Made by a program: the position numbers and the translations under genes. Below, one piece after another: positions 20,401 to 58,591 of a stretch of 61,828 nucleotides of DNA (positions are counted from its first letter, which is position 1; the number at the start of each line of letters is the position of its first letter). This DNA comes from a virus, in the IMG/VR virus record IMGVR_UViG_3300022821_000021, positions 1-61,828 of that record, one strand, 5' to 3'. Below the pieces are notes generated by a model. That model saw nothing but the letters and a program-made list of their open reading frames with translations, did no database searches and had not been told where the DNA came from.

Positions 20401-20409
20401 TTTTTTTGA

Positions 20410-20444: not shown

Positions 20445-21191
20445 GTGATTGTAACTGACATAAATGTATTGAATAACTTCTTATTTGAAGGCGTTAATGA
20501 CAAAGGTGTATTAAAGGCTGTTTTTATGGCTGGAGGTCCAGGATCAGGAAAGTCATTTGCTGCTGATAAAATATTCGGTGTTGATACGATTATGTCTGGT
20601 ACAAGTACCCTCGGATTGAAAGTAATAAATTCGGACATACAGTTCGAACGATTACTTAAAAAGGTACACATTGATCCAACCAAATTAGGACAAATGACAG
20701 ATAAATTATTTCAGTACTATACAACACGACCTGAATCACCCCGCATCAAAGCAAAGGAAACCGTCACTAAATTAAAAAAGATTTATGAACTTGGTAGATT
20801 GGGCATGGTATTGGATGGTACGGGTAAGGATTATAATAAAATAGCTAACGAACAAAGTCGCTTGGAATCAATTGGGTATGATACTGCTATGGTTTTTGTA
20901 AATACAGATTTAAAGACAGCACTACAAAGAAACCGACAGCGCGAACGCGTAATCAAAGATGACCTGGTCGCCGCTTATTGGAAAAAAACGCAAGCTAATA
21001 TTGGAAAGTTCCAAACTTTATTTGGTAAATATATGTACATAGTTGATAACACCGAAATAGGTGATTTTAATAAAATACATAAAAGAAAGATATCATTGAC
21101 TACTAAATTTGTTAATAAACCAATTGATAATAATATAGGTAGACAATGGATTGAAAATGAATTAAAATTGAAGAGCCTAAATATAAAATGA
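20445..21191 (+). CDS. Zeta-toxin-like P-loop nucleoside/polynucleotide kinase
   Basis: A 248-residue protein from GTG 20445, with GGGAG 14 bases upstream as ribosome site. Walker A GGPGSGKS lies at about residues 28-35, followed by VINSDIQFE, a lid-like helical segment, the GMVLDGTGKD block near residue 125, and an arginine-rich NRQRER segment near 166. This is the pattern of zeta-toxin/AAA_33 kinases, which phosphorylate small nucleotides, sugars or RNA ends. It is coupled (ATGA overlap) to the adenylyltransferase gene, so a joint pathway is likely. Toxicity is not implied. Confidence 0.8.
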   Translation: MIVTDINVLNNFLFEGVNDKGVLKAVFMAGGPGSGKSFAADKIFGVDTIMSGTSTLGLKVINSDIQFERLLKKVHIDPTKLGQMTDKLFQYYTTRPESPRIKAKETVTKLKKIYELGRLGMVLDGTGKDYNKIANEQSRLESIGYDTAMVFVNTDLKTALQRNRQRERVIKDDLVAAYWKKTQANIGKFQTLFGKYMYIVDNTEIGDFNKIHKRKISLTTKFVNKPIDNNIGRQWIENELKLKSLNIK

Positions 21192-23500
21192 ATTACGGTG
21201 AATGGATAGCACATAATATTTTATCTGAAGCGGATAGAAAATCAAATGGTATAAAGACTATAGTTGCTATATACCCAGGCCGATTTCAACCCGCTGGTAA
21301 ACATCACGTTAAAACATTCAAGTGGGTAGAAACCCTTTTTGATGAAGCATGGGTAGTAACCAGCGACAAAGTACAGTTGCCGAAGTCGCCGATGAATTTT
21401 AACGAAAAAAAGAAAATATTTAATAAGCACGGTATTCGTAAAATTATACAAGTAAAAAATCCATATCAAGCTACAGAGCTATTAAGTAAATACGACCCAG
21501 AAACAACTGCTGCTGTATTTATAGTTGGAAAAAAAGATCAGGAACGGCTTGGCAGTAAGTTTTTCTCCCCGTGGAAGGGAGTAGCATCGGTAGGATATAG
21601 AAAAGGCGCGTATACATTAATTGCTCCGCATATATCTCTTAACGTTGCTGGTTATGGTGAAATGTCGGGTACTACAATTCGCCAAGCTTTGGCTCAAGAC
21701 CCGAATACACCCGAAGCTAAAAAAACATTTAAAAGTATTATGGGATGGCACGACCATTCTATCCATAAAATGATATCAAGTAGATTACGTGTAAATGAAT
21801 TATTAGAAAAATTTATAAATAATAGTGATTTCTCGGATAGTATAACCGAAGCAAGTTTATCAAGTTTATCATCATTGGGTGATGTGGATGATGGCCCGCA
21901 GATGTGGTATCGTACAACCAATTCATATAAATCGGCAACAAATCATGTAGCAGAAAAGCTCGGAATGAAAGTAATAAATTACATAACCGGAGATTCTGAT
22001 ATGTCACTTAATAACTTATCATCTAGATTTTCACATATAACTAGATCACCATCATTTTTCCCCGCAGGTGTAGCTGGAAAGACAACTACAATTAACCAGG
22101 ACGACTTTGAATCTGTAGAAGCATTTGCAGAATGGGCAAAATATATAAAAAATATTGCGTCATCAGTGGGAATGCAATTTTTGGATTACCTTGGCGCTGA
22201 AATGTCAACTGATTATTCGGAGCCAAACACTCAGACCGATGACTTGGTATCTGAGGGGCTCCTTGTCGAGTTTCCCAATGATGATGAGGGAAAAGTACAG
22301 TGTATGGTGTGTGGGTGTATGATGAAACAAATTCAATACAGACATTTAAAATATAGCCATAATGATATGACTATGGTGGAATATAAAGATAAATACCCAA
22401 ATGCACCACTTATAGCAGACTCCGTTAAAAACACAGGTAATAAAAATCCGATGGCTAATTCCACTGTTAGGGAAACACATAAAAAAAGTGTAACCACAGA
22501 TGAATACCGAAAAAAACAAAGAATTGGTTCTACTGGCAGAATCGCAAGCGATGAAGCTAAGAAAAAAATGTCTGAAAATAATTCGATGCATTCTTCTGAA
22601 AACAAAAAAAAGGTATCGGATGGTGTTCGGAAATCATATGAGAAAGAACCATCGTTGAGAGAAAAGAGTTCGATAACTGGTAAGAAATATGGATTTGGTA
22701 ATAGTAAGACACAAGATAAAATAGCTAAAGCTCGAAATTGGACTTTATTGGAAGATAAGCCAGCATTTGAACGTTACCAAGAAAAAGTTAGACGTTTATC
22801 TAATGAAAACTATCAAACATATTTCAATGAAATACCGAATGCTAAAAAGCGGAGTAGAGATTTTCATTTAGACCATAAGTTATCAATACATGATGGCTTT
22901 AATAAAAATATTCCAGTTGAAATTATCTCTCATTATACAAACTTTGAAATGATGTGTGGTAGGTTGAATGAAAGTAAAGGGGGTAATTCAACAATATCAT
23001 TAAGAGAATTGATTGTTGATATAGAATCATCCAATCATCCAATGGGATCTCGTAATATCAAGCAATTACTCACTTGTGGCGGAGCATACGGACACATGTC
23101 GCACCCATTTGATGATAAAGAGTTAACCTTCGGTGATATGAAGCATATTATAACTACATCATTACAAGGTAATTTAAGTATGAATACAATGCCCACTGAA
23201 AAATGTATATATCCAGACGCGATATTACAGTTGAAAAACAACGGCCGAATGAAGATTTCTGATTTTGTTGACAGTGGTATAACAGATGATGTATTATCAT
23301 ATGACTCGGATACAGATTCTATTGAGTATAGACCTGTAACTAATAAATTTAATAACGGTGATTCTGATGAATGGCTTGAAATTGTACTTGATGATGATAG
23401 TATTATACAAGTAACACCTAACCATAAAATATATATAAAGAATAGAGGATTTGTTCGAGCAGATGAATTAATACTTGGAGATGATTTAACTGTTATTTGA
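21188..23500 (+). CDS. NMN adenylyltransferase-like/nucleotidyltransferase, N-terminal precursor ending in an N-intein
   Basis: A 770-residue protein. Residues about 22-175 are a cytidylyl/NMN-adenylyltransferase-like domain: VAIYPGRFQPAGKHH has the nucleotide-binding (H/T)xGH variant GKHH, and GEMSGTTIRQAL matches the ISSTxIR motif. Residues 175-355 are an unassigned linker domain. About residues 365-600 are an inserted HNH endonuclease. Residues about 601-672 return to the host protein (CGGAYGHMSHPFDD, LTFGDMKHII) and end in MPTEK. Cys673 to the stop is an N-terminal intein half. After trans-splicing, Lys672 would join the Thr-Asp-Gly of the C-extein at 24468, recreating a KTDG nucleotidyltransferase motif. 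Confidence 0.85.
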   Translation: MNYGEWIAHNILSEADRKSNGIKTIVAIYPGRFQPAGKHHVKTFKWVETLFDEAWVVTSDKVQLPKSPMNFNEKKKIFNKHGIRKIIQVKNPYQATELLSKYDPETTAAVFIVGKKDQERLGSKFFSPWKGVASVGYRKGAYTLIAPHISLNVAGYGEMSGTTIRQALAQDPNTPEAKKTFKSIMGWHDHSIHKMISSRLRVNELLEKFINNSDFSDSITEASLSSLSSLGDVDDGPQMWYRTTNSYKSATNHVAEKLGMKVINYITGDSDMSLNNLSSRFSHITRSPSFFPAGVAGKTTTINQDDFESVEAFAEWAKYIKNIASSVGMQFLDYLGAEMSTDYSEPNTQTDDLVSEGLLVEFPNDDEGKVQCMVCGCMMKQIQYRHLKYSHNDMTMVEYKDKYPNAPLIADSVKNTGNKNPMANSTVRETHKKSVTTDEYRKKQRIGSTGRIASDEAKKKMSENNSMHSSENKKKVSDGVRKSYEKEPSLREKSSITGKKYGFGNSKTQDKIAKARNWTLLEDKPAFERYQEKVRRLSNENYQTYFNEIPNAKKRSRDFHLDHKLSIHDGFNKNIPVEIISHYTNFEMMCGRLNESKGGNSTISLRELIVDIESSNHPMGSRNIKQLLTCGGAYGHMSHPFDDKELTFGDMKHIITTSLQGNLSMNTMPTEKCIYPDAILQLKNNGRMKISDFVDSGITDDVLSYDSDTDSIEYRPVTNKFNNGDSDEWLEIVLDDDSIIQVTPNHKIYIKNRGFVRADELILGDDLTVI
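22280..22995 (+). mobile_element. In-frame HNH homing-endonuclease insertion inside the adenylyltransferase gene
   Basis: A segment of about 235 codons with no stop sits between two host domains. It begins with a C2H2-like finger (CMVCGC, then YRHLKYSHND), then a NUMOD3-like lysine/serine-rich tract (GNKNPMANS, SDEAKKKMSENNSMHS), then an HNH-type core (FHLDHKLSIHDGF, NFEMMCGRLNESKGG). No intein blocks flank it, so it is either retained as an extra domain or was inserted as a free-standing gene that happens to keep frame. The borders are approximate. Confidence 0.75.
23204..23497 (+). mobile_element. N-terminal half of a split intein
   Basis: 98 residues from Cys673 of the precursor to its end. 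The splice junction is Lys-Cys at 23201-23206. Block A opens with CIYPDAILQL. The block B-like segment is VTPNHKIYI (TxxH pattern), followed by GFVRADELILGDDL, which is the usual end of an N-intein. The ORF then stops at TGA 23498. The matching C-half lies 863 bases downstream. Splicing in trans is inferred from the motifs. Confidence 0.9.
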
Positions 23501-23525
23501 TACCATCCGTTTTTCGGAAATTAGA

Positions 23526-23533
23526 TATTTATA
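23526..23533 (+). promoter_or_regulatory. Late-promoter-like element before the split-intein endonuclease
   Basis: TTAGATATTTATATAT ends only 6 bases before ATG 23540, so a transcript started about 7 bases on would have almost no leader. Confidence 0.5.
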
Positions 23534-23539
23534 TATAAT

Positions 23540-24394
23540 ATGAATAAACTTTGGAAATGTACATATTGTTCTGCAAAAATAGGTGTGATTAATAAACAAC
23601 AAATATCAAATCATTATAAGAGCTGTAATCAATATAAATTATACAAAAATAGAATCTTAACTAAAGAATTTCTGTATAATGAATATGTTAATGTTGGTAA
23701 GGCTGCTAATCAAATTTCACAAGAAATCGGAATTGGGGTAAACCCAATTATTAAAGCACTATGTAAATTTGAAATCCCAACTAGATCGGTTAAAGAATCT
23801 AATAATATGAAATTATATAGAGATCGAATAAACTCTACTAATTTAGAAAAGTATGGGGCAGTAAATCCATTAAGTAAAAATACTATACCATACCATACGA
23901 AAAACAAAACAGTATTAACTAAATATGGTGTTGATAATGTTAGAAAGGCTCCTGTGATTATTGATAAAATAAAGAAAAAACTTCGAGTTTGGCGTGACGA
24001 AAACGGCCATTCTACGTTAGGACATAAACATTCAACAGTTACCAAACTGAAAATGAGAGAAAGTAATATAAAATATCGTAATACATTGGATAAATGTAAA
24101 CAATATTGTTATAACAAAAATTCAATTTCGATTCTTGAAGCCAAAGCTAAAGAACTCGGAATAACTGATATACAACACGCTGAAAATGGCGGCGAATTTC
24201 AAATTTGTGGCTATTTTGTGGATGGGTATAGTAAAGAAACTAATACAGTTTTTGAGTATGATGAAAAATATCATTTCAGAAACGGTAAATTAAAAGATAA
24301 AAATATTCAACGTCAATATATTATAATGAATGAATTGAATTGTAAATTTATACGGATTAATTATGAAAATAAAATCTATCACGAAAGTAAATAA
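23540..24394 (+). CDS. Homing endonuclease between the split-intein halves (Vsr-like / EDxHD type)
   Basis: A 284-residue protein. The N-terminus has a C2HC-type finger (CTYCSAKIG, HYKSC) and a helix-turn-helix-like segment (GKAANQISQEIGIGVNPIIK). A NUMOD-like NLEKYGAVNPLSK repeat follows. The C-terminal nuclease shows VFEYDEKYHF with Glu, Asp and His, then KDKNIQRQYIIMNELNCKFIRI, the pattern of Vsr-related homing nucleases. Its last 32 bases overlap the start of the C-intein gene. A late-promoter-like TATTTATA ends only 6 bases before ATG 23540, so its own transcript would be nearly leaderless. Confidence 0.82.
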   Translation: MNKLWKCTYCSAKIGVINKQQISNHYKSCNQYKLYKNRILTKEFLYNEYVNVGKAANQISQEIGIGVNPIIKALCKFEIPTRSVKESNNMKLYRDRINSTNLEKYGAVNPLSKNTIPYHTKNKTVLTKYGVDNVRKAPVIIDKIKKKLRVWRDENGHSTLGHKHSTVTKLKMRESNIKYRNTLDKCKQYCYNKNSISILEAKAKELGITDIQHAENGGEFQICGYFVDGYSKETNTVFEYDEKYHFRNGKLKDKNIQRQYIIMNELNCKFIRINYENKIYHESK

Positions 24395-24467
24395 GCTACA
24401 AACTAGATATGATATTCAAGTTGAAGGCCGCAAGTGTTATTATGCTAATGGTATTTTAGTGCATAAT
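24363..24467 (+). mobile_element. C-terminal half of the split intein
   Basis: The first 35 codons of the downstream precursor, ending in His34-Asn35 with Thr36 as the +1 nucleophile. The length and the YDIQVEG...ANGILVHN pattern are typical of C-inteins. It starts at an ATG inside the end of the endonuclease gene, so the endonuclease and the C-half overlap by 32 bases. Together with the 98-residue N-half the intein totals 133 residues. Confidence 0.9.
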
Positions 24468-25535
24468 ACTGATGGTCAAAATTTATTTATTACTTGGGCT
24501 AATGGTAAGTTAATGGCAGCAAGAAATACCGGTGACTTAAAACGTGGTGGTATGGACTATAAAGCAATTGCTGCAAAATTCGCAGGACGTGGTAATATAG
24601 AAAAAGCTTTTACTCTTGCTATGAAAGATTTATCTTCGGCCATATCATCCATAAATGATAAGCAACGACAGAAAATATTTGATAACGGTGGTAATTGGGT
24701 AAACATGGAAATCATTTATCCACCATCTGAAAATGTTATTTCATATGATGCACCATATCTTCAATTCCACAATGTATTACAGTATTCTGGTAGCCAAGCT
24801 AATGGCGAAGTAAAGGATGGCGCTCGTATGTTGGCCGGTATGATTAAGCAGGTAAATAAGAATTTACAAAAAAACTTTGCTATCATTGGTCCCAATGTAC
24901 TGAAGCTTCTTAAAAATAAAGACTTCGCCGAAAAGAGTTCGTATTATATTTCTAAAGTAGATACTCTCAGAAAGAAATTTAAATTGTTAGATACGTCAAC
25001 CCTCGCTGAATATCATCAAGCTTGGTGGGAAGCTTTCATAGAATCTAAATTTGGTGCTCTTGACAATAATATTAAAGTAGGATTGGTAAATCGCTGGGCC
25101 TTCTTTGACAAAAGTTTTAGGTTAAATCGCCAAAATATACCTGATGAAGCCGTTCTTGCGAAAGCAATTGAATTTGATAAAGGGTCACATTCAGATCAAG
25201 TAAAGAAAAATATGTTTCCATTTGAAGTATTGTTTTTTGAACTCGGCGTAGACGTACTTAAAAACGTAGAGAGTTTCCTCGCTGTTAATCCAGATAAGGC
25301 TGTACAGAATATACGCAATCAAGTTGCCAAAGCAATTACAGATGTTCGAAAGGGTGGTGATTTAAAGAAACTTAAAAGAATAGATACGCAATTGGCTAGA
25401 ATCAAAGCAATTGGTGGATTTGATACTATTATTCCATCCGAAGGATTGGTATTTGTATCCAATGGTAAGACTTATAAATTAACCGGCAGCTTCGGCCCCG
25501 TGAATCAAATAGCAGGATTAATGAATTTTGATTAA
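24363..25535 (+). CDS. C-terminal precursor: C-intein half plus KxDG nucleotidyltransferase (ligase-like) extein
   Basis: A 390-residue protein. Residues 1-35 are a C-intein: YDIQVEGRKCYYANGILVHN contains block F and the terminal His-Asn of block G. Residue Thr36 is the first extein residue. The extein starts TDGQNLFITW and has AARNTGDL, VNMEIIYPPSENVISYD near residue 125 and, at the end, EGLVFVSNGKTYKLTGSFGP. With the upstream Lys these read as motifs I, III, IV and V of the covalent nucleotidyltransferase (ATP/NAD ligase, capping enzyme) superfamily. The substrate is unknown. RNA or DNA ligation is the likeliest chemistry. Confidence 0.85.
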   Translation: MKIKSITKVNKLQTRYDIQVEGRKCYYANGILVHNTDGQNLFITWANGKLMAARNTGDLKRGGMDYKAIAAKFAGRGNIEKAFTLAMKDLSSAISSINDKQRQKIFDNGGNWVNMEIIYPPSENVISYDAPYLQFHNVLQYSGSQANGEVKDGARMLAGMIKQVNKNLQKNFAIIGPNVLKLLKNKDFAEKSSYYISKVDTLRKKFKLLDTSTLAEYHQAWWEAFIESKFGALDNNIKVGLVNRWAFFDKSFRLNRQNIPDEAVLAKAIEFDKGSHSDQVKKNMFPFEVLFFELGVDVLKNVESFLAVNPDKAVQNIRNQVAKAITDVRKGGDLKKLKRIDTQLARIKAIGGFDTIIPSEGLVFVSNGKTYKLTGSFGPVNQIAGLMNFD

Positions 25536-27597: not shown

Positions 27598-29619
27598 ATG
27601 AGCAATCCTAATTTAAAACAGCTTATAGCATCGGAGTACAAAAAGTGTGCAGCTGATCCAATATACTTTATGCGTAAGTATTGTCATATTCAGCACCCAA
27701 CACAGGGCAAAATGCTGTTTAATCTTTATCCATTTCAAGAAAAAGCATTAGATGATATTCAATCTCATAGATATGAAATTATATTAAAGTCTAGGCAGCT
27801 TGGTATATCTACGCTTGTTGCTGGATACGCATTACACCAAATGACATTCAAAGAAGACTTTAACGTACTTGTAATTGCTACATCAAGGGATGTAGCAAAA
27901 AACATGGTTACTAAAGTTCGTGTCATGTATGACTATTTACCATCTTGGTTAAAAGAACAAACGGATACAGATAATAAATTGTCGCTTAGATTCAAAAACG
28001 GGTCTCAAATAAAAGCCATTTCATCGACTCCGCAATCAGGAAGATCGGAAGCGCTTTCGCTTCTTATTTTTGATGAAGCAGCGTTCATTGATTATATCGA
28101 TGATATTTGGATTGCAGCGCAACAAACATTGGCTACTGGTGGTAGGTGTATTGCATTATCAACACCAAACGGTACTGGTAATTGGTTTCATAAGCAATGG
28201 AAGTTCTCAGAAGAGGGTTCAACCAAAGCCCAGTTTAATTCACTTAGACTCCATTGGTCAGTACACCCAGATAGAGACCAATCTTGGAGAGACGAACAAG
28301 ACGAATTATTAGGTGAAAGAGCGGCAGCTCAAGAATGCGATTGTTTGTGGGGCGAAAGCCGAATTAAAGTACGTGATTCTAAAACCAAAGAAGAATTTTA
28401 TATTACATTATCGGAACTTTATAATACAAATATGATATTTAAACAGAACTTACAGTATGAAATATCAACGCCAAGTGGATATCAGCCATTTACTGGTATC
28501 CGTAAATTAGAAAAAGCTTCTCATTACGTTATATCATTATCCAATAATATCGTTTTAAAATGTTCTACTACGCATCCATTTATGTATAATGGCGCGGAAA
28601 TATTAGCAAATAAATTGGAAGTAGGATCTCTAATTGATTCCGATGTACCGGATACACAATATGTAACCGTAGTAAACATACAATTGATACATAAATCCAT
28701 TGAATTATATGATATAGTTGAAGTAGATAATGGTAATATCTTTAATGTGGATGGTGTGGTTTCTCATAATTGTGATTTTATTTCATCTGGTAACACACTT
28801 ATACGTGGTGAATTAATAAAGTGGTATGAAGATAACCAAGTTTCCGAACCAAAAGAAAAAAGAGGTCCTGGCGGTGAATTGTGGGTATGGAAAGACCCCG
28901 ATTACTCACGCGATTATATGTTGGTAGCTGACGTTGCAAGGGGTGACGCATCAGATTATTCTGCGTTTCACGTAGTAGATGTTGAAGCGTGTGAGCAGGT
29001 AGCTGAATATAAGGGGCTAATTGGAACAAAAGAATTCGGTAATATGATGGTCAACGTGGCCACCGAATACAATAATGCGCTTTTGGTTATTGAAAATGCA
29101 AATATTGGTTGGGCAGCGATACAACCTGCAATCGACAGAGAATATAATAATTTATATTACACGTACAGACACGAAGGAGTTACGGACGCCGCGGTACAAT
29201 TGGAAAAAGGATATGATATAAAAGATAAGGCGCAAATGACGCCAGGATTTACAACGTCCGGCAAAACCCGCCCGCTTTTGATATCAAAACTTGATATGTA
29301 TAGTAGAGAAAAATCATGTATTATCAAATCTCAACGATTAGTTGATGAATGGTACATGTTTATTTGGAAAGGATCAAGATGTGAAGCTCAACGTGGGTAT
29401 AATGATGACCTAACAATGGCATGGTCAATAGGATTATATATCAGAGACTATGCACTTAAACTTCGTAATGACGGCATAGAACTCAATAAAAATTCACTTA
29501 GATTATTTCAGAAAGTAGGTGGCCCATCGGGCGTTTACACCGGCAACAATGCAAATGCTCATAATTCATTGAATATGAATGTGAACGGAAACGAAGAAAG
29601 CTTGAAGTGGCTATTATAA
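27598..29619 (+). CDS. 17: Terminase large subunit gp17 interrupted by a mini-intein
   Basis: A 673-residue precursor. The ATPase domain has the adapted Walker A SRQLGIST near residue 65, Walker B LLIFDEAAFI near 157 and the coupling motif ALSTPNGTGN. The RNase-H-like nuclease has VADVARGDASDYSAF, VIENANIGW and GYNDDLTMAW as acidic motifs. Between the two domains residues 249-391 are an intein, and removing it restores AQECD-CDFISSGNTLI, the usual T4-type terminase sequence. The motor cuts and packages concatemeric DNA through the portal encoded next door. The small subunit is not in the window. Confidence 0.95.
   Translation: MSNPNLKQLIASEYKKCAADPIYFMRKYCHIQHPTQGKMLFNLYPFQEKALDDIQSHRYEIILKSRQLGISTLVAGYALHQMTFKEDFNVLVIATSRDVAKNMVTKVRVMYDYLPSWLKEQTDTDNKLSLRFKNGSQIKAISSTPQSGRSEALSLLIFDEAAFIDYIDDIWIAAQQTLATGGRCIALSTPNGTGNWFHKQWKFSEEGSTKAQFNSLRLHWSVHPDRDQSWRDEQDELLGERAAAQECDCLWGESRIKVRDSKTKEEFYITLSELYNTNMIFKQNLQYEISTPSGYQPFTGIRKLEKASHYVISLSNNIVLKCSTTHPFMYNGAEILANKLEVGSLIDSDVPDTQYVTVVNIQLIHKSIELYDIVEVDNGNIFNVDGVVSHNCDFISSGNTLIRGELIKWYEDNQVSEPKEKRGPGGELWVWKDPDYSRDYMLVADVARGDASDYSAFHVVDVEACEQVAEYKGLIGTKEFGNMMVNVATEYNNALLVIENANIGWAAIQPAIDREYNNLYYTYRHEGVTDAAVQLEKGYDIKDKAQMTPGFTTSGKTRPLLISKLDMYSREKSCIIKSQRLVDEWYMFIWKGSRCEAQRGYNDDLTMAWSIGLYIRDYALKLRNDGIELNKNSLRLFQKVGGPSGVYTGNNANAHNSLNMNVNGNEESLKWLL
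28342..28770 (+). mobile_element. Mini-intein in the terminase gene
   Basis: 143 residues without an endonuclease domain. It opens with CLWGESRIKV and has STTHPF (block B, TxxH) followed by AEILANKLEVGSLI. It closes with ELYDIVEVDNGNIFNVDGVV and Ser-His-Asn, and the +1 extein residue is Cys. The intact block set suggests self-splicing is functional. The insertion point is the hinge between the ATPase and nuclease domains. Confidence 0.93.
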
Positions 29620-43997: not shown

Positions 43998-45527
43998 ATG
44001 ATAAAATTAAAACAACAATCAGGTGTAACAACGTATTTAAATTACGGATCAAGTAATACATTATATAATCCAGTAAGACCTGGTAATTACGTCAATCGAT
44101 TATTAAACATAAAACTACATCGACACTTTGTTGATAATCGTAGATATGTTGCAGGAGGTGGCCCTCCTGGATTCAATGTAGATAGTATTAATCAATTTAT
44201 GCCAGCACGTATGCCTCAGGGCTTTTGGACCGACGAATACCTACAGCTATTAAAAGACGCAGGTGTTGAAAATATATGGTCATTACAAGGTAAGTTTCCG
44301 TTTCAAGATACAATAGGTACACCTTCCAAAGTAATGCCAATCAATGAAGCAGATTATCCAGATCAGGGTAATCCTGGTGTATGGTTTGAACTTGGAAAAT
44401 ACGCCGGACAAGTGGCAATTAGATACGCAGATGATTCATCAGCATTTATTGACTCAGCTGATGTATGGCAACATGACCCTAATTCTATTACTAATCTCCA
44501 TCCAAGTTATTTAAGTAACACACCAAAGGCAGGTATGGGACTAGTTCAAATTATCCAAGTATTAAACGAACCAAACGTAAACCCCGATTGGATAGGTGCA
44601 ACAAATAGTATTACAGCCGAAGGAACAGCAGCAGCTTATTACGCAGTTTATACTGAAGTTCGTAAGTACTCTCAAACAATTAAGATAGTGACCGGTCCTC
44701 CAATTGGAATTAAAAATGATAGGGAATTCCTACGTAGAATGCTAGACCATTTGAAAGTATTATTCGGTGGTAAAGTACCATCCGATGTTTATATTTCGTT
44801 CCATTGGTACATGCGAGAACTTAACCAAAATCAAGGGCAAGGTGGTACTGACACAGGCGCTTCTCCTGAATTTGTTGATGCATACGAACTAGGACTATGG
44901 GTAAATGACCTCTGCCATGAATTTGATATTGCAGGTTGGTATTGTACTGAAACCGGCTGGTCATCATCGCCCAATATAGATACAAGTAAAAATGCAGCTC
45001 CTATACAGGAAGGATTCACACAATTGGAATCTCATGGTGTATTAATGACGCGATTAGTATTAATGTGGAGTTCATTGGATAAGCATATGGCTACTACGTT
45101 TTGGCATTGTAAGGATGCATATGATTCGGGTGCATATTTTAACGGCGGATTGTTATATAAGGATGCTGAATCAACACGTAAGCCATCACTTAGAATATAT
45201 GAAGACTTTATTTCAAGTTGGGGTGAATATGACGTTACAGGATACTATCCAAATTCATTAACTAATGAATATTATGCTACGTTACTTGGACCTACCGGCG
45301 ATTTTATTACGTTGGGTTGGAGCGATAAAGATAATTCTGGAGAACTTACACCAGACCCAACCATTGTATCTACAGTCATTTTGCCTGACCCAGTACCGAC
45401 AGGTAGCCTACCTCCAACAGGAAGTGAAAAACCTACTATTGAAGTTGATTTCACATCATTGAAATCTATTACATTTGAAACTGAAACTGAAAATATTAGA
45501 TTCGTAATATCAGGCTCAGTCGTTTAA
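43998..45527 (+). CDS. Virion-associated glycoside hydrolase (clan GH-A TIM barrel)
   Basis: A 509-residue protein. The acid/base Glu is in QVLNEPNVNPDW (Glu191) and the probable nucleophile in CTETGWSS (Glu318), the arrangement of GH-A retaining glycosidases. SFHWYMREL and FWHCKDAYDSGAYFNGGLLY are barrel-end segments. Residues about 445-509 are a proline linker and a short beta tail ending VISGSVV. There is no signal peptide, as expected for a structural enzyme. It would degrade capsule or exopolysaccharide during adsorption. The exact family and substrate are unknown. Confidence 0.82.
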   Translation: MIKLKQQSGVTTYLNYGSSNTLYNPVRPGNYVNRLLNIKLHRHFVDNRRYVAGGGPPGFNVDSINQFMPARMPQGFWTDEYLQLLKDAGVENIWSLQGKFPFQDTIGTPSKVMPINEADYPDQGNPGVWFELGKYAGQVAIRYADDSSAFIDSADVWQHDPNSITNLHPSYLSNTPKAGMGLVQIIQVLNEPNVNPDWIGATNSITAEGTAAAYYAVYTEVRKYSQTIKIVTGPPIGIKNDREFLRRMLDHLKVLFGGKVPSDVYISFHWYMRELNQNQGQGGTDTGASPEFVDAYELGLWVNDLCHEFDIAGWYCTETGWSSSPNIDTSKNAAPIQEGFTQLESHGVLMTRLVLMWSSLDKHMATTFWHCKDAYDSGAYFNGGLLYKDAESTRKPSLRIYEDFISSWGEYDVTGYYPNSLTNEYYATLLGPTGDFITLGWSDKDNSGELTPDPTIVSTVILPDPVPTGSLPPTGSEKPTIEVDFTSLKSITFETETENIRFVISGSVV

Positions 45528-48776: not shown

Positions 48777-49193
48777 ATGACAACAATAGGCGGACCAAGA
48801 ATATCACAAGCTCAAACCCAAGTAAGATTAAGTCAGCAATCAGGTGTAACAACGTATTTAAATTATGGGTCAGGTAATGAATTGTATGATCCACGTGATA
48901 CATCAAATTATGTTAATCGATTATTAAATATAAAACTACATAGACATTTCGTAGATAATCGCAGATATGTAGCAGGCGGCGGAACCGCTGCTTCCAATTC
49001 GGCTAGCGCTAACATATTCATACCACAAAGAATGCCTCAAGGCTACTTTACCGATGAGTATTTACAGATGTTAACTGATAATGGTGTTGAAACAATGTGG
49101 TCATTACAGGGTAAATTTCCATTTCAAGACACGATTGGTTCCCCAACAAAAGTAATGCCTATTAACGAAGCAGATTATAGTGTAATTTATTAG
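48777..49193 (+). pseudogene. Truncated duplicate of the glycoside hydrolase at 43998
   Basis: 138 residues. From SQQSGVTTYLNYGS to PINEADY it follows the first 110 or so residues of the 43998 enzyme closely (RLLNIKLHRHFVDNRRYVA, SLQGKFPFQDTIG), then stops after four unrelated codons. Both catalytic Glu residues are missing, so it cannot be an active enzyme. The N-terminal part of the barrel may instead be kept as an attachment domain. A leading 14-residue piece (TTIGGPRISQAQTQ) is new. Confidence 0.8.
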
Positions 49194-57755: not shown

Positions 57756-58591
57756 ATGAACGGAATTATAGCAATAAGTAAAGAAAAATCTAATCGTGGT
57801 ACTCCAAAACGAGTTAAAAAAATATGTGAATGGACTAATATAGAATTTTGGATAGATTGGAAATATAGACACCAGCGATTTAAAGATATTAAAACAATGC
57901 ATGATTGGAGATCGGCGACAGCGCATGAAATTGTAAATTGTTTGAATTGCGGAACTTCGTTCGAACGATATAAAAATTGGAAACATCGTAGTTCCGGGAA
58001 ACCAGCCCAGTATTGTTCAAATTACTGCAGTGTTTCATCAATTGAAAAAAGAAAGAAATTACAAGTCTGGGCTAACAGTGAAAAAAATCATTGGAATACT
58101 AAAAATGCCAAGATAAAGTTAGACGGACCAAATTGAAAAGATATGGGGATGAGAATTACAATAATCCAGAATTGAATAAAAAAACAATGATGGAAAAGTA
58201 TGGTGTTCCATATGCAGTATATTTACCACACGTACAATCGAACGGAAAATCAATTTCAAATGGACAGCGACAGCTATATGAAATAGTTAAACAAAAATAT
58301 AGTGATGCTAAACTTGAATGTTTCTTAAAAGATGTTGCCATATCAGTAGATATATTTATACCAAGTGAAAATAAAGTTATAGAATATTTTGGTGATTATT
58401 GGCACTGTAATCCAATAAAGTATGATAAAGATTATTACCACACACAAATTCACAAGATAGCTGAAGATATATGGAAATCTGACTTAGATAGAATTGAATT
58501 GTTAAAATCTAATGGATATGTTGTTGGCATAATATGGGAATCCGATTTTAATAAAGATAAATCTAAAATTAATGATACTTATATACAGTAA
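57756..58591 (+). pseudogene. Frameshifted homing endonuclease between sheath and tube genes
   Basis: The first frame (57756-58136) has a zinc finger CLNCGTSFERYKNWKHRSS...YCSNYC and stops at TGA 58134. The second frame, open from 58103 to 58591, reads VRRTKLKRYGDENYNNPEL and then a Vsr-like nuclease (NKVIEYFGDYWHCNP, IWKSDLDRIELLKSNGY, GIIWESDF). In intact relatives the TKLKRYG stretch is preceded in frame by the N-terminal part, so a -1 shift between about 58103 and 58133 broke it. Reinitiation at TTG 58133 remains possible. No intron is seen. Confidence 0.75.
58576..58583 (+). promoter_or_regulatory. Late-promoter-like element before the tail tube gene
   Basis: AATGATACTTATATACAG lies in the last codons of the broken endonuclease, 30 bases before the tube ATG. 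The element lets gp19 be expressed independently of the insertion. Confidence 0.5.

Follow-up and report, generated by a model that had tools for sequence, protein, structure and literature searches.

Fractured genes, in which an enzyme gene is broken into two parts that each carry half of a split intein, were reportedly described by Dassa and colleagues in 2009 for phage enzymes of eight types, gp41, NrdA, NrdJ and IMPDH among them. In these loci, a free-standing Vsr-like endonuclease gene is said to lie between the two intein halves, with control elements accompanying it. In Aeh1, mobE likewise splits the nrdA gene (Friedrich et al. 2007, as cited in PMC10448857). Here, we analyzed the viral record IMGVR_UViG_3300022821_000021 over its positions 1 to 61,828 (61,828 nucleotides (nt), hereafter the window), and in particular a locus at 21188-25535. 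With high confidence, we interpret this locus as a two-domain enzyme gene that has been fractured by a split intein together with an endonuclease gene, and that carries a separate HNH insertion. The open reading frames (ORFs) and other features of the locus are listed below, with lengths in amino acids (aa) and a slash marking a junction or cleavage point in sequence motifs.

21188-23500, plus strand: N-precursor ORF, 770 aa, comprising the leader, the adenylyltransferase-like domain, the HNH insert, the start of the ligase-like domain and the N-intein
21188-21229, plus strand: putative leader MNYGEWIAHNILSE, resembling a T4-type capsid targeting sequence that ends in LxE/A
21266-21790, plus strand: nucleotidylyltransferase (NMNAT/PPAT-like) domain, approximate limits, from Pfam CTP_transf_like and fold matches
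22271-23077, plus strand: in-frame insert of 807 nt (269 codons) with zinc finger, NUMOD3-like and putative HNH-type endonuclease parts, delimited by alignment
23078-23203, plus strand: start of the ligase-like domain (GGAYGHM...TEK), whose last codon is the KxDG lysine, from alignment
23204-23497, plus strand: N-intein, 98 aa (Cys1, TPNH), from TIGR01445 and the NrdJ-1 profile match
23502-23533, plus strand: control element after the N-intein stop, a CCATCNGTTTTTTC-like block and the ATATTTATA promoter-like box
23540-24394, plus strand: free-standing gene for a putative Vsr/EDxHD-type homing endonuclease, 284 aa, from fold match, family alignment and the ratio of nonsynonymous to synonymous substitution rates (dN/dS)
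24363-25535, plus strand: C-precursor ORF, 390 aa, its first 32 nt lying within the endonuclease gene
24363-24467, plus strand: C-intein, 35 aa, ending His-Asn, from TIGR01443 and 11 relatives
24468-25532, plus strand: C-extein, the rest of the ligase-like domain with +1 Thr (TDGQN..., SEGLVF, YKLTG)

Reading the sequence anew returned the three ORFs and both intein halves where the preliminary description had placed them. The N-precursor ends with its 98-residue N-intein and a stop (tail CIYPDAIL...DDLTVI), and the second precursor opens with the 35-residue C-intein. The N-half scores above the cut-off of the NCBI model for intein N-termini, TIGR01445 (27.0 bits, cut-off 24.5), as does the C-half for the counterpart that describes C-termini, TIGR01443 (25.1 bits, cut-off 15.6). 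The two halves match complementary positions of Pfam Intein_splicing, 3-93 and 122-155 of 155, both below its cut-off, while a profile of 11 N-halves found the NrdJ-1 intein (PDB 8UBS, E=1.5e-16). Cys1 (block A), TPNH (the TxxH of block B), block F and the terminal His-Asn, already noted at first reading, are conserved across 11 loci, and all occupied ligase-like sites examined have Thr at position +1. Together, Cys1, TxxH, the C-terminal His-Asn and the +1 Thr assign the intein to class 1. The enzyme gene is broken in two, each part is fused to one half of this split intein, and a free-standing endonuclease gene occupies the space between them, its frame sharing 32 nt with that of the C-precursor. 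The overlap of the C-intein start with the endonuclease end is kept in most fractured relatives. The fractured-gene arrangement first proposed for this locus is supported by the intein profiles, by uninterrupted relatives and by recurrence elsewhere. An assembly artefact was ruled out, as the same arrangement is present in 22 other viral contigs, many of them distinct in sequence.

The insertion point of the intein immediately follows the lysine in the KxDG motif (TEK/TDG), and the uninterrupted gene reads EKTDGQ across this point in most of 80 viral loci (about 70 relatives). The host gene encodes a fusion of two enzyme domains. Pfam CTP_transf_like was found in the first domain of 25 of 26 relatives, with fold matches at prob 1.0, and the second domain gave no Pfam or PDB sequence match. 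Residues K406xDG409, R425, E487, E731G732 and K743 of the second domain are invariant in 26 aligned sequences. This is the pattern of covalent nucleotidyltransferases and suggests that the domain is ligase-like, short of proof. The comparison was made with motifs I (KxDG), Ia, III, IV (EGxV) and V of covalent nucleotidyltransferases and polynucleotide ligases. An hhalign comparison with the T4 RNA ligase 2 (Rnl2) family pairs both catalytic lysines but is weak (E=0.0046, with one of 20 shuffles nearly equal). Since the predicted structure of the uninterrupted protein of L004 (L-numbers denote related viral contigs or loci compared with the window) is poor (predicted local distance difference test, pLDDT, 60) and its fold search identified the adenylyltransferase domain only, the ligase identity of the C-terminal domain rests on the motifs and the weak profile alignment. 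Directly upstream, 20445-21191 encodes a kinase/zeta-toxin-like P-loop protein with an N-terminal FLFE/G motif, which may form a repair pair with the ligase-like domain.

An intact enzyme would require protein trans-splicing of the two precursors. The product of 1027 residues predicted earlier includes the 269 residues of the HNH insert. The N-half outside the intein had been taken as host protein throughout, which proved incorrect, as residues 362-630 are an in-frame HNH-type insertion.

Related loci present a series of states at the same site. Some genes are empty, that is, uninterrupted; in the window and 20 other contigs the gene is fractured with an intact endonuclease; the endonuclease has an in-frame TAG in L099 and in L100, which has the same sequence; L231, L241, L255 and L257 have a split intein without endonuclease, with 15-87 nt between the halves among such relatives; and L187 and L190 carry contiguous mini-inteins of about 136-139 residues, with a similar length in L243. 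Two near-identical phages differ at the site: L003 carries the intein with the endonuclease but lacks the HNH insert, and L005 has the HNH insert without the intein. They are identical at 127 of 127 nt upstream, 1061 of 1065 nt of the C-extein and 4586 of 4592 nt downstream, or about 99.8% over 5.9 kb of shared sequence. Of their eight differences in the shared gene, five are no more than 12 nt away from an insertion junction (P=3e-6), a clustering that co-conversion would produce.

In L231, the gap between the halves is 62 nt long, with the 5' control block running straight into roughly 40 nt from the 3' end of the endonuclease gene. A stretch of 71 nt that takes in the beginning of the C-intein matches L097 at 87% identity (E=3e-21). 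By its sequence, this gap is a deletion remnant of the endonuclease gene. A shorter remnant is left in L241, which nests within the fractured loci both in the intein tree and in the host-domain tree. Because of these two remnants and this nesting, the endonuclease-free split loci are best read as cases of endonuclease loss in which the split was kept, and L231 argues that endonuclease-free split inteins can arise via insertion followed by loss. The contiguous inteins of L187 and L243 may be split inteins that have fused again. In both trees, L187 has the fractured L101 as its sister (support 0.89 and 1.00), but a supposed 3' endonuclease scar in L187 was, by alignment, indistinguishable from chance. 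The observed stages fit the general homing cycle (PMC7765530).

The predicted structure of the endonuclease has a pLDDT of 81, and its best nuclease fold match is the catalytic domain of I-Bth0305I (Foldseek, 3R3P, prob 0.99), with Vsr itself (1VSR) at prob 0.63. The earlier designation as Vsr-like is thus one of fold similarity, with no sequence-level match to the Vsr family. A dN/dS of about 0.21 indicates purifying selection. In an alignment of 29 sequences, family members come from the same ligase-like site, from TerL inteins with an atypical split, where they separate the two halves, and from free-standing positions next to genes for DNA polymerase, IMPDH, a recombination nuclease and structural proteins (neighbors named by reading the sequence). 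The terminase large subunit ORF of the window (27598-29619) carries a contiguous 143-residue intein (28342-28770) at an AceL-TerL-type site (ECD/CLWG...SHN/CDF). In several relatives, such as L071, L103, L108 and L110, this TerL intein is split, with the same endonuclease family between its halves.

In the stretch that separates the stop of the N-intein from the start of the endonuclease, the CCATCNGTTTTTTC-like block and the ATATTTATA-like box were both found in 11 of 13 fractured loci checked. The window holds 12 copies of ATATTTATA, all on the coding strand (for example at 20409, 23525, 31412 and 37910), and 10 of them precede an ORF start by no more than 60 nt, mostly by 15-60 nt (binomial P=6e-12). 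Given this strand bias and this clustering upstream of ORF starts, ATATTTATA is very likely the promoter box of the phage.

We then propose a model for the origin and expression of the locus. A split intein carrying a free-standing Vsr/EDxHD-type endonuclease would have invaded the codon after the KxDG lysine. Alleles that lack the intein would be cleaved by the endonuclease at this conserved position, and their repair would copy the whole cassette in. Since the endonuclease gene has its own promoter-like element and its frame overlaps the C-precursor start, the endonuclease and the C-half are probably co-expressed. The intein halves would bring the precursors together, and Cys1/Asn/Thr+1 chemistry would join them, restoring EKTDG. 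Separately, an HNH-type endonuclease gene would have entered in frame at the domain boundary and be translated as part of the protein.

Several points weigh against this model. Splicing, cleavage and homing are all deduced from sequence, as is the ligase activity, and the second domain is only weakly assigned as ligase-like. Both the empty and the occupied alleles are known from metagenome assemblies. The Foldseek match to I-Bth0305I has an E value of 0.037, no sequence profile reached the Vsr family, and profile searches of the PDB with the endonuclease returned chance matches only. Although the low dN/dS of the intein halves, the exteins and the endonuclease speaks for purifying selection, several dS values are near saturation (about 2).

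One alternative is that the element is dead, its halves no longer splicing and the enzyme working as two pieces or not at all. Some relatives have indeed lost or inactivated the endonuclease. We nevertheless consider this unlikely, because the catalytic intein residues are invariant in 11 loci, the dN/dS of the intein halves and exteins is low, and a break at the KxDG lysine should leave unspliced halves without that active site.

The second insertion has exact boundaries by alignment with insert-free relatives. It is located at the domain boundary, is absent in L003 and L004, and contains no intein blocks or intron that could be found. A ROS/MucR-type zinc finger (ROS_MUCR) was detected in six of six inserts and NUMOD3 in three of the six (E 0.011), and an HLDHK...N...H pattern is conserved. 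The inserts gave no Pfam HNH match, and the insert matches phrog_5104, of unknown function. All four combinations of the two insertions occur: both are present in the window, L002 and L099-L101; the intein without HNH in L003 and others; HNH without the intein in L005, L076-L078, L175-L177 and others; and neither in L004 and others. Between L002 and L005, the HNH segment is 98.9% identical and the C-extein 85.4% identical, and the HNH segment has therefore moved recently between alleles. That the region is instead a native domain of the host protein would agree with its reading frame and with its position in a linker variable in length and content. This seems very unlikely, given the clean 807-nt presence or absence in otherwise identical flanks (L003 versus L005), its absence from most homologues, the near-identity just described within flanks of 85% identity, and its recurrence in distant relatives, again at this boundary, and as an N-terminal fusion in L189. 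In L189 (3314-6094), the same HNH family is fused in frame upstream of an adenylyltransferase-like domain (...KIKNIVVMSGRFQPF). In L191 (3254-5710), an HNH insert precedes LLLC/GGAAGHMKHPFD in a different KxDG-type protein (KIDGVNAS), which suggests that the boundary motif is common to another ligase-like family.

Vsr-like endonucleases occur in group I introns as well as inteins, so the halves might be joined at the RNA level with the endonuclease inside a group I or II intron of a contiguous intein, but this is highly improbable, as no Rfam intron match was obtained between the halves at gathering or relaxed threshold, the endonuclease frame enters the C-intein frame and leaves no room for a 3' intron core, and the endonuclease-free split relatives retain just the short spacers given above.

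The boundary chosen by the HNH insert has a further feature. In the insert-free relatives examined it reads xE/GG, with Leu or Ile nearly always two residues before the Glu; Microcystis phage Mel-JY01, for example, has IAE/GGLGGHM here. Among 67 unique boundary contexts, 62 end in Glu, and the remaining five are all HNH carriers reading LL[TQ]C/GG. Further HNH carriers mostly read LLxC/GG, with two exceptions, and the sequence downstream of the insert is mostly LL[TQLM]C/GG in the carriers (22268-23080 in the window). With the insertion, a putative prohead-protease site thus seems to be lost. A prohead protease of the T4-gp21 type is encoded in the window (E=7.5e-35), and [LI]xE/[AG] sites are present in the major head protein and scaffold candidates of the phage. 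The host-protein N-terminus and the segment before the boundary each resemble a leader of the form (x)LGxWLAxQIL.E. Leaders of this kind, or capsid targeting sequences, are present on T4 internal proteins (PMC7411985). This resemblance suggests that the host gene product may be a packaged, protease-processed two-enzyme protein.

It is tempting to combine these features into one scheme, which we regard as possible rather than probable. The protein would be a capsid-targeted polyprotein with each enzyme domain behind an (L/I)xE leader that the prohead protease removes, so that the enzymes are delivered with the DNA. HNH would have colonized that boundary since an unspliced in-frame insertion is tolerated there. 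The split intein would leave the ligase-like active site unmade until trans-splicing, and later deletion of the endonuclease would leave the gene split, a route to permanently split inteins.

Elsewhere in the window, two overlapping ORFs with endonuclease matches (HNH/homing, PHROGs) lie at 57756-58591 between the tail sheath and a structural gene, and are possibly a frameshifted homing endonuclease. The 155-aa protein encoded at 13291-13758 matches the PHROG 'NAD synthetase' and several homing endonuclease families, and is probably a small nuclease. The ORFs at 43998-45527 and 48777-49193 have a near-identical segment in common (QQSGVTTYLNYGS...NYVNRLLNIKLH), apparently duplicated structural modules.

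Compared with the fractured genes reportedly described by Dassa et al., the locus has the same arrangement, host type and endonuclease type. It differs in its adenylyltransferase/ligase-like host gene, split at the KxDG lysine, and in its second HNH insertion, strain-level empty alleles and endonuclease remnants. The NrdJ-1 natural split intein (PDB 8UBS) is the nearest solved intein to the N-half, with a different extein and +1 Thr here. I-Bth0305I, of the EDxHD homing endonucleases (3R3P; PMC3943268), is the best nuclease fold match for the C-terminal domain of the endonuclease, both having an N-terminal DNA-binding region; there is no detectable sequence similarity between the two, and the endonuclease lies between intein halves rather than in a group I intron. 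The atypical split inteins AceL-TerL and GOS-TerL (PMC11766414) are connected to the locus through related phages, whose split TerL inteins hold the same endonuclease family; here the gene and the split position are different, and the TerL intein of the window itself is contiguous. In Aeh1, an endonuclease insertion likewise breaks an essential phage gene, but according to the citing account the pieces of nrdA work without an intein. The arrangement is already known, and what appears to be new relative to the reported 2009 work is the extein with its insertion point, the invasion of one gene by two elements, one of them an in-frame HNH that is not spliced out, the empty alleles at strain level and the remnants of the endonuclease. 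At this one site, phages of nearly identical sequence either have or lack the element, and the states grade from empty through fractured and stop-codon endonuclease to remnants, with a contiguous intein as well, which apparently goes beyond the 2009 description. The locus also adds Cys1/Thr+1 natural split inteins of the NrdJ-1 neighborhood at a KxDG lysine, which are candidate splicing tools.
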